NCBI RefSeq assembly: GCF_002752635.1
Contig: NZ_AYTW01000014.1
Location: 1-60,815, forward strand
Length of the DNA stretch: 60,815 bases
Direction: 5' to 3'
DNA from: Mesotoga sp. Brook.08.105.5.1
GTDB lineage: Bacteria; Thermotogota; Thermotogae; Petrotogales; Kosmotogaceae
Part shown: in pieces, positions 916-7,110 of the stretch
Position numbering within the stretch: the first letter of the stretch is position 1
Layout: every line of letters begins with the position of its first letter
Translations under genes and position numbers: made by a program
Notes under the pieces: generated by a model
Seen by the model: only the letters and a program-made list of their open reading frames with translations
What the model was told of the DNA's origin: nothing
Database searches by the model: none

Positions 916-1214
916 TGAGGAGCTCGCTGAACGGGATAAGTTGGAAGAGAATGAGAAACGGACTGGAGAGAATGTACTGGATTATTTCTCTTTGGATATG
1001 AGTGAATTCTCCAAGAGAAGTGAACTGTCTGGTAAACAGTGTGAAATCCTTTCCAAGCTAAAGGGTGAGGCACTTCCAGCTTGCTTCGAAATCCGGCCAA
1101 AAATCTGCAAACATGCTCACAATTTTCACAAGCTCTATAACCTCTCAAGATATTGAGCTCATTCGTAGTGTTCAGCACATGATATTGCATAATGTAACAC
1201 TAATGTAGTTTATA

Positions 1215-1243
1215 GTCATAATATAAGTCAAGTATGCTACAAT
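1215..1243 (+). promoter_or_regulatory. Candidate promoter of the peptide/radical SAM operon
   Basis: An extended -10 element, TG-C-TACAAT, sits at 1235-1243. The -35 position at a 17-base spacing (GTCATA, 1215-1220) is weak, as is common when the extended -10 is present. Predicted transcription would start near 1250, about 115 bases before the first peptide gene. The surroundings are AT-rich. Confidence 0.45.
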
Positions 1244-1259
1244 ATAAAGTGGATTCTGC

Positions 1260-1277
1260 AAACATGTTAAACATGTT
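1260..1277. repeat. Tandem AAACATGTT boxes, possible operator
   Basis: Two perfect direct copies of the 9-mer AAACATGTT lie back to back. Each contains the palindrome AACATGTT. They sit just downstream of the predicted transcription start, so a protein bound here could block the promoter. No regulator gene is adjacent, and none of the neighbouring genes has a helix-turn-helix domain. Confidence 0.35.
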
Positions 1278-1365
1278 AAACCGCAATTGGTTGGACAGGG
1301 CAAATTCGTGCTTTGTGTACATTGTGGAAGGAGTTTGTTATTGACAAAGAAATGGAGGTGTTAGG

Positions 1366-1464
1366 ATGCTCAGTGGGTACTATGAGATCAGTACTGACTT
1401 AGTGAACCTGTCTTTGTGCTCTTTTTGTGAGAGCGCGATTGTCATTTGTGGAATAATTTGGTAG
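1366..1464 (+). CDS. Putative RiPP precursor peptide A (32 aa)
   Basis: This 32-residue open frame has a strong Shine-Dalgarno site (GGAGG at 1354-1358, 7 bases before the ATG). The start is ML-x-GYY and the C-terminal block is CSFC-x2-AIVICGI-x-W, with cysteines at 18, 21 and 28 and a terminal Trp32. It is 19/32 identical to the next peptide, and the identity is concentrated in the last 15 residues, as expected for leader plus core. It lies directly before a radical SAM/SPASM maturase and an exporter. The C-x2-C-x6-C pattern and terminal Trp recall the sactipeptide subtilosin A (C-x2-C-x5-C), so thioether crosslinks are plausible. Product class is inference. It is too short for most gene callers. 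Confidence 0.8.
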   Translation: MLSGYYEISTDLVNLSLCSFCESAIVICGIIW

Positions 1465-1517
1465 CTGCATCTAGCAGACCATAAGTGTTCTGATTGTTCT
1501 GATAAAGGAGTGGTTTT

Positions 1518-1616
1518 ATGCTTTTGGGATATTACATGTTGTCAAGTGATTTTCCTGAAATTGTCTCTTGCAGCTTCTGTCGAGATGCTATTGTCATCTG
1601 CGGAATAACGTGGTAA
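1518..1616 (+). CDS. Putative RiPP precursor peptide B (32 aa)
   Basis: This is the second copy of the precursor, again exactly 32 residues, with its own AAAGGAG site (1504-1510) 7 bases before the ATG. Residues conserved with peptide A include the ML-x-GYY start, Ser9, Asp11, the CSFC motif, AIVICGI and the terminal Trp. The variable positions are 7-17 (leader-like), 22-23 and 31. The gap from peptide A is 53 bases and the gap to the maturase start is 77 bases. Conservation of protein, spacing and ribosome sites across the duplication argues strongly that both are translated. Two related cores could form a two-component product or variants of one product. Confidence 0.8.
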   Translation: MLLGYYMLSSDFPEIVSCSFCRDAIVICGITW

Positions 1617-1693
1617 TTTGTTGATATTGCTATCTGCCCTGTCCATTTTGGCAATTGTCCAGTTTAGTTAGGTCAAACCAAGGAGGTAGGAGC

Positions 1694-3106
1694 ATGAGTT
1701 TACAAGAAGGCTTTCCATTTCGTTCTCCAGGAATTGACTTGATAAAAACTAACAAAGGCGGAATACTGAAGTTCATTGGAAAAACTGTTGCACTTTATGT
1801 TACACAAACCGACGCTATCTTCCTTTCATTATGTGATGGCACTAGAAGTATGAGCAAAATCGCCATCCTCTTGTCTGAGCTTTACAAAGTAGATTCTAGA
1901 ACAATTCTAAATGATATAACAAGGCTTGCTGAAAAACTGCATGAATTGCATGTCCTTGTTATGCTGCCTATGGCTTTAGAGAAGAGGCTATCAACTATGG
2001 AGGATTGGCATGAATTTGTTTTCATTCCTGCAGATGAAAGTTGTCCAGTTGTTCCTGCAAGGATAAGCAGCATAGGCTTTGCATTAACCAATTACTGTCC
2101 TTACAATTGCGAATATTGTTATGGAGCTTTTGGAAGCGAAAACGAAGCTTTCTACCTTCCTACGGCGAAGGTAATATCGATCATTGAAGATGCTAGAAAA
2201 CTCGGAAAGGTAGAGTATGTAAGTTTGGGAGGCGGTGATCCGATTGCCCATTCAGGGTTATCAGAAATAGTAAGTTATCTTGAAAGTTGCCGAATAACCT
2301 ATGAGCTCTCTACCAAGGGATTGTTACTGAGCAAGAAGAAAGTTGATGAGCTTGTTGTTGCTGGTATTAGGAACATTCAGATAAGTATTGACGCGTGGCA
2401 TCCTGAGGTGTGGTCGGAAATTGTTGGATTACCTAAACACGCCTTCAATAGCGCAATTGAATCGTTCATATACTGCAAGAGTGCAAATGTCTCTACACGA
2501 GCAAGAATAACTCTATCAAGGCGGAATCTGGAAGAGTTGCCCTATTTATTAGAAAACCTCCCATTTTTGGGAGTAAGCGAGATTAGAATAGTGACTCTGA
2601 TGCCTTCTGGAAGAGCCAGAATCAATGAGATCCCTAACAGAGATCAGATTGAAAGTGCATTGGAGGTTGTGGAAGCGTTCAGATCAAAGTATGGCAATAA
2701 GCCAGAGATTGTCTTTGGGGTGCACAGATATACTAGTTCACTCAGTTGTGGTGGTGCTAAACTCGCAATGCAGATTGGTGCAGACGGGGAGGTTCTACTG
2801 TGTGATGTTGTAGAAGGTCTTGACAGGGCACGTTTCAGTTATGGAAATGTATTCCGTAACTCAATAGAAGAGATTTGGTTCTCTAAACAAGCTGATGCAT
2901 TTAGAACGAATCGCGAAATCTCAGAGTGTCTTGATTGTGTAAAGTTTGCTCAATGTAATGGAGGTTGCAGAGCTCTAGCCTTTTCTTACTATAATTCGTA
3001 CGATTCACCAGATCCCCGGTGTTCAAGAATAAGCGGAAAAGAAGGAGATATCCTCGAATGGCCTGTGAAAAGACAGCCCGGTGGGGGGGAGAAATATGGA
3101 GAATGA
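1694..3106 (+). CDS. PqqD-like/radical SAM/SPASM peptide maturase
   Basis: The 470-residue protein begins at an ATG with AAGGAGG 7 bases upstream; an in-frame TTG at 1655 lacks a site and is rejected. Residues about 10-95 look like a PqqD-type peptide-binding domain (RRE). Cys135, Cys139 and Cys142 form the CX3CX2C motif that holds the SAM-cleaving [4Fe-4S] cluster. The C-terminus has a full SPASM pattern: a Cys pair around CGG...LLC, then C-x2-C-x5-C-x3-C and a last Cys, enough for two auxiliary clusters. Such fused enzymes install thioether or carbon-carbon links in precursor peptides (AlbA-type sactisynthases are one example). It overlaps the exporter gene by 11 bases, so the two are probably translationally coupled. 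Confidence 0.9.
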   Translation: MSLQEGFPFRSPGIDLIKTNKGGILKFIGKTVALYVTQTDAIFLSLCDGTRSMSKIAILLSELYKVDSRTILNDITRLAEKLHELHVLVMLPMALEKRLSTMEDWHEFVFIPADESCPVVPARISSIGFALTNYCPYNCEYCYGAFGSENEAFYLPTAKVISIIEDARKLGKVEYVSLGGGDPIAHSGLSEIVSYLESCRITYELSTKGLLLSKKKVDELVVAGIRNIQISIDAWHPEVWSEIVGLPKHAFNSAIESFIYCKSANVSTRARITLSRRNLEELPYLLENLPFLGVSEIRIVTLMPSGRARINEIPNRDQIESALEVVEAFRSKYGNKPEIVFGVHRYTSSLSCGGAKLAMQIGADGEVLLCDVVEGLDRARFSYGNVFRNSIEEIWFSKQADAFRTNREISECLDCVKFAQCNGGCRALAFSYYNSYDSPDPRCSRISGKEGDILEWPVKRQPGGGEKYGE

Positions 3107-4832
3107 AAAGAAGATAGTTCGCAGGTTTGTCTTCAAGCTGTTCAAAGTCTATTGGAAACGGGAATTGCTGGCTGCAGTTCTGGTCGGAGTGATGATTGCT
3201 CTTGCAGTTGTCTTCCCGCTCTTGATAAGACTGCTAATAGATGTTGTTATCCCTTCTGACAACATGGATCTTCTCTTAAAGTACGTTTTGCTTGTCGTCG
3301 GGCTCTGGTTTGGAAGCTTGATCTTTACCTATTTTGGCGAGGTGGTTTTTGAAACCACGGCCCTCATGGCAAAATCGGACCTGCGAAAGCAATTGTTAGA
3401 GAAGATGTTTGTTCTTCCTTTCGACTATTTCCACAAGAATAAAACCGGTGAGCTCGTATCGAGACTAATATCTGATCTGGAACTTGTAGGAACCGTTATA
3501 GCGCAGGTATTTCCGATACTGTTATTGGGAGTCGTTCAGATATCGGCGATTCTAGCTATCATGTTTTCTTTCAACTGGAAACTGACTCTTTTGCCCCTCG
3601 GCTTCATCGTGTTTTCCTTTCTTGTGATAATGTTCTTCAATATTATGGTGGAGAAAAGGAGCAAAGTAGAGAGGGAGAAATTCGGCGAACTGGCAGGAGT
3701 CACAAGTAACATAATCGATAATATGAAACTGATCAGAATCGCCATGCCATTTGCCTGGGTCATGAATTTCTTCGATCGTTTTCAGGGAGACCATGTTTAT
3801 GCGGGCAAGAGGTTCATAAAGGCAATAAAGATCGCCGGCACACTCAAGACGTCGATAAACGGACTTATCTCCTTTTCACTGCTTGCCTATGGTGGTTACC
3901 TGGTAATGAAGGGTGAGATTACCGTAGGAATTCTGATTACTTTCTGGGCTTATGTTCAATCATTGTTCAACCCTATTCAGCTCCTCATGCAGGTGAACAT
4001 TCTTCTAAGACAAAGCTGGGGAGGGCTCCTGAGAACAATCGAGGTACTGGAAGGTCCTGAAGAAGAAATGAGTGATAGTAGTCCTAAGTTAGAAGATGTT
4101 CGGAGCATTTCTTTAGAGAACATTGAGTTTGGCTACGGCAAGAAGCAAATTCTGAAAGGCCTGTCTCTTGAACTGAGGAAAGGGGAAATTACGACGCTGG
4201 TAGGTGAGAGCGGCGCCGGCAAAACCACTACTCTGAATATCCTTATGGGACTACAAAAACCCCAGTCGGGAACCATATACATAAATGGCGATCCGGTATC
4301 GAATTCGGCATTACTCAGACCATATATCGGCTTTGTGGAGCAGACACCAACTTTGTTTGAAAGATGTACTCTCCTGGAAAACATTACCCTGGGTAGATCG
4401 ATTTCTGAAGCCGGTTTGGAAAACATCTTCGAAAGAACAAACCTTGACGTATTGTTGAGAAGATTCGAGAATGGACTCGACACATTGGTTGCAGATGTTC
4501 AGCTTTCTGGTGGTGAGAGACAGTTGGTCGCGCTGGCCAGAGCGTTGGTCTCGAAACCACAACTACTGATTCTTGATGAGATCACGTCAAATATCGATTC
4601 AAAGACTGAAGAAATAATTCAGAATACTCTTGTAAGTCTAAAATCTGAAGGCATAATCGTGCTGATGGTTGCTCATAGATTATCAACTGTTCTATTGAGC
4701 GACAGAGTGGCGTTAATCAGTAATGGGGTTATAGTTGCAAGCGGAACTCACAGCGAGCTTTTAAAGACCAGTTCCGAATACAAGAAGCTTTACTCGCTTC
4801 AGTTGATAAAGGATGAACAGCAGGATAATTGA
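3096..4832 (+). CDS. ABC exporter (fused membrane and ATPase domains) for the modified peptide
   Basis: The start chosen is the ATG at 3096, preceded by a GGGGGGAG site inside the end of the maturase gene. The 578-residue protein is a type IV (exporter) half-transporter: about six membrane helices within residues 1-315, then a nucleotide-binding domain. Walker A (GESGAGKTT) is near 370, the signature LSGGERQ near 470, Walker B LLILDE near 490, and the switch His is in VAHRLS. There is no N-terminal C39 peptidase domain, so leader removal, if any, needs another protease. Its position right after the maturase points to export of the processed peptide; it may also give self-protection. Confidence 0.85.
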   Translation: MENEKKIVRRFVFKLFKVYWKRELLAAVLVGVMIALAVVFPLLIRLLIDVVIPSDNMDLLLKYVLLVVGLWFGSLIFTYFGEVVFETTALMAKSDLRKQLLEKMFVLPFDYFHKNKTGELVSRLISDLELVGTVIAQVFPILLLGVVQISAILAIMFSFNWKLTLLPLGFIVFSFLVIMFFNIMVEKRSKVEREKFGELAGVTSNIIDNMKLIRIAMPFAWVMNFFDRFQGDHVYAGKRFIKAIKIAGTLKTSINGLISFSLLAYGGYLVMKGEITVGILITFWAYVQSLFNPIQLLMQVNILLRQSWGGLLRTIEVLEGPEEEMSDSSPKLEDVRSISLENIEFGYGKKQILKGLSLELRKGEITTLVGESGAGKTTTLNILMGLQKPQSGTIYINGDPVSNSALLRPYIGFVEQTPTLFERCTLLENITLGRSISEAGLENIFERTNLDVLLRRFENGLDTLVADVQLSGGERQLVALARALVSKPQLLILDEITSNIDSKTEEIIQNTLVSLKSEGIIVLMVAHRLSTVLLSDRVALISNGVIVASGTHSELLKTSSEYKKLYSLQLIKDEQQDN

Positions 4833-5812: not shown

Positions 5813-7006
5813 TCAGAATCGCAGTCTTGCAGCGATCTCACTTTGAAGGAGTTCCTTATCAACCACCACGACTTTTCCGTCGTTGTTTATTACGCTTCGC
5901 ACGATCCAGGGGCCCAAATTTCTAACTTCTCTGCTTTCCTTTACGGCATGCGTATATACTAGCTCTCTGTCAAGAACATAACCTCTTTTTCTCTCAAGAG
6001 GATTAATGAAAAGCGTGTCGATCCTTCTGTCATTTGCTGCTTTAGAGACTTCCGTCCAACCTTCGACATACTTGTCGAAATTCTCCCGGGCCATCTCCAG
6101 AAATTCCTTTCGAAGTCTCCTGCTTTCGCTATCTATCAGTTTGTCGACTTCTTCCTGAAGTTGCCTCTCCAGATTGAGTGTCTTTTGAACGAAGATTGGA
6201 TATGCTTCTGGAATAAGGTGTTTCGCTTCCTTCTGGAACTTTTCAATGCTTTCACTGAACGAAGAAGAGTGAAAGAAGACGAGGTATTCGACGTCTTTTG
6301 GAATCTCTTCGTCGTTCTTTATCAATGAGGCGTTCTTCTGAAGGAACCTCCTGTTCTCTTCTTCCTTTGCCTTGCTAACTTTTTCCGAAGCGTTCCCGTG
6401 ATACATCGCTCCCGATGAAGGCGAGGGAGAGTACCCCTCCAGATACTCCTGTTCTTTTTCTCGAATGAACTCATTTTCGACGCTCTTAATAAGAGAGAGT
6501 TTTCTTCCTTCCATTAGATAGTATGTTGATTTTTCCCTCTCCAGCGAGACAACAAGGGCCTCCGCAGATGAGCTTGAAAGCCATATCAGTTGATCAAGAT
6601 CGAATGTCTTACCTACGTAAATCTCCTTCTCGGGCTTTCTATGAAGCGGGATGATTTTGACACCTTCGATTGCTTTATCGTTTTTTACATCTTCGCCTGT
6701 GTGGAACTCGATAAAAATAGCCAATCCCCTCCCCAAATCATCGATGTTTCCGAGTTTGGTAAGGACTGCTTCAACAACCTTCTGATGAATTTTCCCCATA
6801 CCGGTTATCTTCTCGTCCTTCCTCAGACAATCTAGGATATTTGACTTCAAATGTTTTTCCGCATCGCTCCTTTTGAGATTCTCCATTGGAAAGTAGAAAG
6901 TGAGAAGATATGAATCTGATTTGATCCCGGCCTCTGCACTGAGTAGCTGTTGAAGTTCTTTTTCCATCTCAGCTTTTCGAAGAACGCGTGTAGCGACATT
7001 ATCCAT
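5813..7006 (-). CDS. baeRF-family (bacterial eRF1/pelota-like) protein
   Basis: The 397-residue protein starts at the ATG at 7006, which has AAGGAGG upstream; a longer frame to 7069 lacks a site. The middle shows the YHGN-A-x-KVSKAKEEENRRFL pattern and the C-terminal third has NDRRIDTLFI followed by a KVVVVD strand. These are hallmarks of bacterial homologues of archaeo-eukaryotic release factor domains. Members of that family are proposed to act on stalled ribosomes or as hibernation or rescue factors, without a settled mechanism. Residues about 245-320 are very charged and probably helical. It is transcribed divergently from the MFS gene. Confidence 0.6.
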   Translation of the reverse strand: MDNVATRVLRKAEMEKELQQLLSAEAGIKSDSYLLTFYFPMENLKRSDAEKHLKSNILDCLRKDEKITGMGKIHQKVVEAVLTKLGNIDDLGRGLAIFIEFHTGEDVKNDKAIEGVKIIPLHRKPEKEIYVGKTFDLDQLIWLSSSSAEALVVSLEREKSTYYLMEGRKLSLIKSVENEFIREKEQEYLEGYSPSPSSGAMYHGNASEKVSKAKEEENRRFLQKNASLIKNDEEIPKDVEYLVFFHSSSFSESIEKFQKEAKHLIPEAYPIFVQKTLNLERQLQEEVDKLIDSESRRLRKEFLEMARENFDKYVEGWTEVSKAANDRRIDTLFINPLERKRGYVLDRELVYTHAVKESREVRNLGPWIVRSVINNDGKVVVVDKELLQSEIAARLRF

Positions 7007-7110
7007 TTGATTTGCCTCCTTCCTTCGCTTCTTGGTGGTTAAGAACCTACGGGCTTTCACTCTTGGCACAGTCTTCCATTCTCAGTACTCTCTCTTCAAT
7101 TATAGTATCT

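Follow-up and report, generated by a model that had tools for sequence, protein, structure and literature searches.

The window, by which we mean the whole stretch of DNA analysed here, comprises positions 1 to 60,815 (60,815 nucleotides) of contig NZ_AYTW01000014.1 from Mesotoga sp. Brook.08.105.5.1 (Kosmotogaceae, Thermotogota; assembly GCF_002752635.1). Close to one end it carries a compact set of genes, considered here as a candidate cassette for a ribosomally synthesized and post-translationally modified peptide (RiPP): two short genes for putative precursors, a predicted radical S-adenosylmethionine (radical-SAM) maturase and an ATP-binding cassette (ABC) exporter. Genomes and loci are designated by G and L numbers, the window's own genome being G000. 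The features of the cassette are as follows.

1366..1464, + strand: precursor peptide A, 32 aa; open reading frame (ORF) with a ribosome site, homologues of which adjoin maturases; MLSGYYEISTDLVNLSLCSFCESAIVICGIIW
1518..1616, + strand: precursor peptide B, 32 aa; 19/32 residues as in A; MLLGYYMLSSDFPEIVSCSFCRDAIVICGITW
1617..1693, + strand: spacer from precursor B to the maturase; strong hairpin in relatives, none standing out in the window
1694..3106, + strand: maturase, 470 aa; Pfam domains and invariant cysteines
3096..4832, + strand: ABC exporter, 578 aa, permease fused to ATPase; Pfam domains, orthologues kept without a maturase
1134..3045: near-identical tract relative to the sister species G001; 4 differences in ~1,910 bp

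Both precursor ORFs have a ribosome site 7 nt before the ATG (GGAGG-tgttagg-ATG for A, AGGAG-tggtttt-ATG for B). The genes are separated by 53, 77 and −11 nt, the ABC gene sharing its first 11 nt with the end of the maturase gene, and this spacing suggests that all four form one operon. The tandem arrangement and the twin 32-codon ORFs with equally spaced ribosome sites had been described in a sequence-only reading of the window, and both stand as described. Precursors A and B are alike well beyond chance (E 3.6e-8), and 12 of the 20 codons translated alike (stop included) differ synonymously; in the core, synonymous differences dominate. Among orthologous peptides dN is well below dS (value pairs 0.08/1.72, 0.18/0.62 and 0.03/0.44). 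The earlier reading had singled out the balance of synonymous and non-synonymous change as telling, and synonymous change is in excess; judged by these rates, the peptide frames are under purifying selection.

The maturase combines a PqqD-like putative RiPP recognition element (RRE, residues ~43–87), a radical-SAM domain (131–285) and a SPASM domain (352–443). Its radical-SAM motif is C135-x3-C139-x2-C142 and its SPASM cysteines are C352, C370, C412, C415, C421, C425 and C443. The CX3CX2C motif and full SPASM set claimed from the sequence alone were thus found, and these cysteines are invariant across six family members, down to 30% identity. With a dN/dS of 0.10, the gene is likewise under purifying selection. 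The peptides fit no model in NCBIfam or Pfam, and every curated NCBIfam cut-off lies far above what the maturase scores, which upholds the earlier description of the cassette as apparently unnamed. The best curated models were PqqE (133 bits against a cut-off of 381), the tungsten-cofactor maturase (103/380) and mycofactocin (98/265), with WgkB (88/650), SkfB (52/300) and StsB (51/625) also scoring. The solved chains nearest to the maturase include PqqE (6c8v, the nearest), SkfB (6efn), and 5wgg and 5v1q, which we take to be CteB and SuiB, respectively.

Among about 100 Thermotogota genomes searched, the peptide occurs in eight: G000 and G001 of the same genus, five genomes of one other family (G017, G026, G030, G032 and G037) and one of a third (G066). 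A short precursor beside a radical-SAM/SPASM enzyme is conserved as a unit in these eight genomes, so that the homologous peptides next to related maturases for which the sequence-only reading had called are present in seven other Thermotogota genomes. The maturases next to the peptide show 39–52% identity and the ABC proteins 38–46%. In G032 peptide and maturase lie on separate contigs, the locus probably having been split by an insertion element. G002 carries a divergent version, in which the maturase is 30% identical and a major facilitator superfamily (MFS) transporter replaces the ABC exporter. Weak peptide-profile matches (E 0.004–1) were set aside: the best, in G039 (L075), has no maturase among its larger ORFs, and the rest look like chance. 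In a limited search outside Thermotogota, plasmids searched by peptide and viral contigs searched by motif gave nothing, which does not prove absence elsewhere. The maturase profile found only weak enzymes in plasmid and viral sequences, a contig scan outside the phylum, keyed to identical 8-mers from a single protein, only an archaeal enzyme at 27%, and a maturase tblastn search of plasmids only generic PqqE-like enzymes (21–27% identity).

Taken together, the locus is very probably a radical-SAM RiPP cassette. Its peptides appear to form a new, apparently unnamed precursor family of a known kind of system. Such cassettes are numerous, and a large published radical-SAM RiPP atlas may already include this cluster, unnamed. 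To our knowledge, no RiPP of the deep-branching Thermotogota has been characterised chemically.

The ten main-family peptides share M1, L2, G4, Y6, C21, I25, C28 and W32 without exception, A24 and V26 being nearly invariant. The leader start is constant (MLxG[YF]Y), and the core follows the pattern C-x2-[AT]-I-[VF]-[IV]-C-[GA]-[VI]-x-W, with Gly or Ala as natural variants at position 29. Conservation would place the leader at about residues 1–17 and the core at about 18–32. The divergent G002 peptide, which ends in EPWCHTAIVIW, keeps only Cys21, Ala24-Ile25 and the terminal Trp, having lost Cys28. Because they are conserved, in part even in G002, Cys21, Cys28, Ile25 and Trp32 are the candidates for cross-linking. 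Cys18, which had been proposed as a cross-link residue, is not supported as a general one, being Asn in G066 and missing in G037, as against the invariant Cys21 and Cys28. The subtilosin-like three-Cys spacing (x2, x6) noted earlier is therefore not a family feature, and the comparison built on it is weak. The window peptides do share with subtilosin A and AlbA three cysteines, a SPASM enzyme with a (here putative) RRE and an ABC transporter, but AlbA-type models do not fit, and neither curated sactipeptide maturase model (SkfB, StsB) was reached.

Two precursor types occur side by side in both G017 and G030. Identities between the two genomes are 29/32 (a–a) and 24/32 (b–b), against 16–19/32 for a–b; the types are therefore orthologous between them, the pair being older than their split and both copies having been kept. 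With 32 residues to go by, the window pair may correspond to that pair or have arisen independently. Four tested relatives have a hairpin between the last precursor and the maturase (z −3.2 to −5.6), as against z −0.5 for the window spacer. The relatives' hairpin is attenuator-like, as would favour precursor over enzyme.

In the mechanism we propose, the MLxG[YF]Y leader start would be bound by the N-terminal PqqD-like domain of the maturase, and the radical-SAM/SPASM enzyme would then install one or two intramolecular cross-links among the last ~15 residues, with Cys21 and Cys28 as anchors and Cys18, where present, adding a further one. The ABC protein would export the product and protect the producer, and because no peptidase is encoded, the leader would be cut off by an unlinked protease. 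Leaving aside the exact bond type and the immunity step, we consider this chain of leader binding, cross-linking and export likely.

For the bond itself, thioethers are favoured because two cysteines are invariant, though the chance of a thioether rather than another bond is about even. A sactionine is one among several candidate chemistries, and sequence cannot tell it from another thioether or from a Trp/Ile cyclophane. The last is the main rival, because Trp and Ile25 survive in the Cys28-less G002 peptide: the enzyme would form a carbon-carbon macrocycle with the C-terminal Trp (e.g., to Ile25 or Ile/Val30), leaving the cysteines free or in a disulfide. The top maturase model, PqqE, is a carbon-carbon bond former, and WgkB is among the better models; a radical-SAM Ile-Trp cross-link has also been reported, going by a title cited in PMC13361665. 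PqqE scores so far under its cut-off, however, that it says little on bond type, and Trp-only chemistry leaves the invariance of Cys21 and Cys28 in ten peptides unexplained. We therefore hold the carbon-carbon macrocycle to be possible, with the odds against it. Natural variation (peptides with and without Cys18, Gly or Ala at position 29, and a paralogue lacking Cys28) makes the cross-link position testable in this minimal four-gene Thermotogota cassette.

The ABC exporter, which has only ABC_membrane and ABC_tran domains in Pfam, is present at every main-family locus whose contig allows it; a main-family maturase without it was seen only at loci interrupted by a contig end or an insertion. 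The reverse does occur. G004 and G009, which have the same downstream flank, share one common internal maturase deletion and carry decayed peptide remnants next to an intact ABC gene (dN/dS ~0.1), which by this ratio is under purifying selection even without a maturase. In G075, from another family, an ABC gene sharing 88% identity with its G066 counterpart adjoins a tetratricopeptide repeat (TPR) gene with no maturase, and G097 likewise has the ABC gene without a maturase, on a 4.5-kb contig. The ABC gene is thus kept after loss of peptide and maturase, and not the other way round, as an immunity function predicts. Whether the product is bacteriocin-like, with the ABC protein conferring immunity, nevertheless stands evenly balanced on this indirect evidence. 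Natural genomes with the ABC gene alone make that role testable.

The tract nearly identical between G000 and G001 covers the precursors and maturase, whereas their flanks differ by ~3–6% upstream, by 7% in the ABC gene and by 20–30% in much of the DNA beyond. A near-identical tract between diverged flanks points to recent exchange between species. Along with the ABC gene's persistence on its own, an exchange limited to precursors and maturase is in keeping with a bacteriocin-like product for which the ABC protein serves as exporter and immunity. Outside the window genus the flanking genes differ, as expected of a moving cassette.

Several observations weigh against parts of this interpretation. 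The PqqD domain of the window maturase is marginal (22.6 bits against a Pfam cut-off of 23.4), orthologues scoring 27.9 bits in G017 (51% identical), above the cut-off, and 23.2 bits in G026, and AlphaFold modelled the RRE with low confidence, the model being good in the core and poor in the RRE and SPASM regions. The ABC exporter has no C39 peptidase, and the cassette encodes no leader peptidase. As for immunity, all that remains in G035 is a stub of the maturase and a disrupted ABC gene, G097 with its short contig and G008 with a cut contig are weak cases, and retention of the ABC gene could reflect another substrate.

A second rival concerns function: the product would be secreted in stationary phase as a signal or surface peptide and would not be an antimicrobial. 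In G026 and G032 the cassette adjoins genes for a divergent protein of TPR-solenoid type and for 43 aa that begin like a signal peptide, and the same TPR family flanks the radical-SAM peptide region of Thermotoga maritima. Transcription in that region is reportedly stationary-phase and nutrient-triggered, according to the title of a 2013 study by Frock, and TM1316 preparations are said to have inhibited none of the strains tested. The window genome, however, lacks the TPR family, and an exporter kept after peptide loss points to protection; we rate a signal or surface peptide as unlikely, on a par with the carbon-carbon macrocycle. More doubtful still is a combined scenario in which one SPASM enzyme links the Cys21/Ile25/Cys28 region to the C-terminal Trp in a new macrocycle, the cassette would be a mobile Thermotogota bacteriocin module with the ABC exporter as its immunity gene, and a Thermotogota-wide TPR/propeptide signalling family would control the module in relatives.

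That the peptide is a redox-cofactor precursor like PqqA or MftA is very improbable: peptide length, the C-terminal aromatic residue and the best-scoring models (PqqE, tungsten-cofactor and mycofactocin maturases, with PqqE 6c8v as nearest structure) are in line with it, but cut-offs are unreached, an always adjacent exporter takes the place of the cofactor-pathway genes, none of the further pyrroloquinoline quinone (PQQ) or mycofactocin biosynthesis genes is in the cassette, and G017 and G030 keep two different precursors side by side.

Other known systems resemble the cassette in part. Locus L079 (G081), which we take to be the TM1316-region radical-SAM peptide locus of T. maritima MSB8, encodes short Cys peptides, with radical-SAM/SPASM enzymes and ABC transporters downstream of them, and is flanked by the TPR family that also flanks some cassette relatives. 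Its peptides, however, are Cys-rich, begin MEFLN... and are 38–56 aa long, and its two maturases are just 25–27% identical over parts; peptide profile A1 found no match in L079–L081, so no homologous precursor lies there. L074, presumably the likely counterpart of Tmel_0409 of Thermosipho melanesiensis, differs in that its peptide has 61 aa (...GDGDGFCGGED...) and its maturase is 23% identical. Tmel_0409 is the sole Thermotogae cluster in the sactipeptide table of a survey (PMC4289311). As is predicted here, the SPASM maturases of ranthipeptides (SCIFF, PapB) act on a Cys-containing core, but the cassette peptides have no six-Cys or CX3D/E core, and the G026 enzyme scored 63 bits with the PapB model, whose cut-off is 340. 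Streptococcal radical-SAM RiPPs share a small precursor, a radical-SAM enzyme with an RRE (putative in the cassette) and an exporter and, with the relatives' loci, a TPR regulator and a small exported peptide; by eye, however, none of the 16 streptococcal motifs matches C-x2-AIV-x-C-x3-W, and the WgkB cut-off was missed.

Some relatives' maturase genes have disrupted frames. Those of G066 and G037 are broken at runs of eight to nine T near the end of the RRE (L038 ~7087, L039 ~8462), and that of G032 has several frame breaks (L041); slippage, decay or sequencing error may be responsible. A single 980-aa frame in G066 spans both maturase and ABC protein (L038:7125–10067).

Elsewhere in the window, positions 195–314 (− strand), at the contig edge and ~1 kb upstream of the cassette, match a group II intron domain (RF01999, 117 bits), and positions 5813–7069 (− strand) weakly match a family of ribosome hibernation factors, below the cut-off (NF052287, 24.7 vs. 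330 bits). Anti-phage defence models returned generic viperin and ATPase similarity only. No TPR gene remnant was found upstream in the window.

The ~530-aa TPR-solenoid family, with no Pfam name beyond a weak TPR match, occurs in 60 of 103 Thermotogota genomes, with up to 18 copies per genome. Of 28 sampled copies, which include the loci that led to the family, 15 are accompanied by a divergent 29–68-aa ORF whose start, by a simple pattern, resembles a signal peptide; many of these ORFs are 43–52 aa long (e.g., MKKITILIIIGIVIFSTIIFAGDNDDEYATDSTNPQIQIEFSE). For 11 of the 28 copies, a radical-SAM gene is no more than 5 kb away. The family and its small ORFs may form a peptide-TPR signalling system. 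An RRNPP-type receptor was considered for the TPR protein; its solenoid is modelled confidently, yet no PDB fold matched below E 0.001, and membership is not claimed. Examples of the family, and of unrelated short Cys-peptide ORFs adjoining Thermotogota radical-SAM genes, are as follows.

TPR-solenoid family: L037:10637–12232, L040:5869–7470, L042:4215–5822, L079:4874–6484, L076:5832–7409, L095–L114
Unrelated short Cys-peptide ORFs: L074:4397–4582 (− strand), L082:7776–7976 (− strand), L101:7728–7838 (− strand), L079:6935–7433 (+ strand)

The latter suggest that Thermotogota hold more uncatalogued RiPP families.
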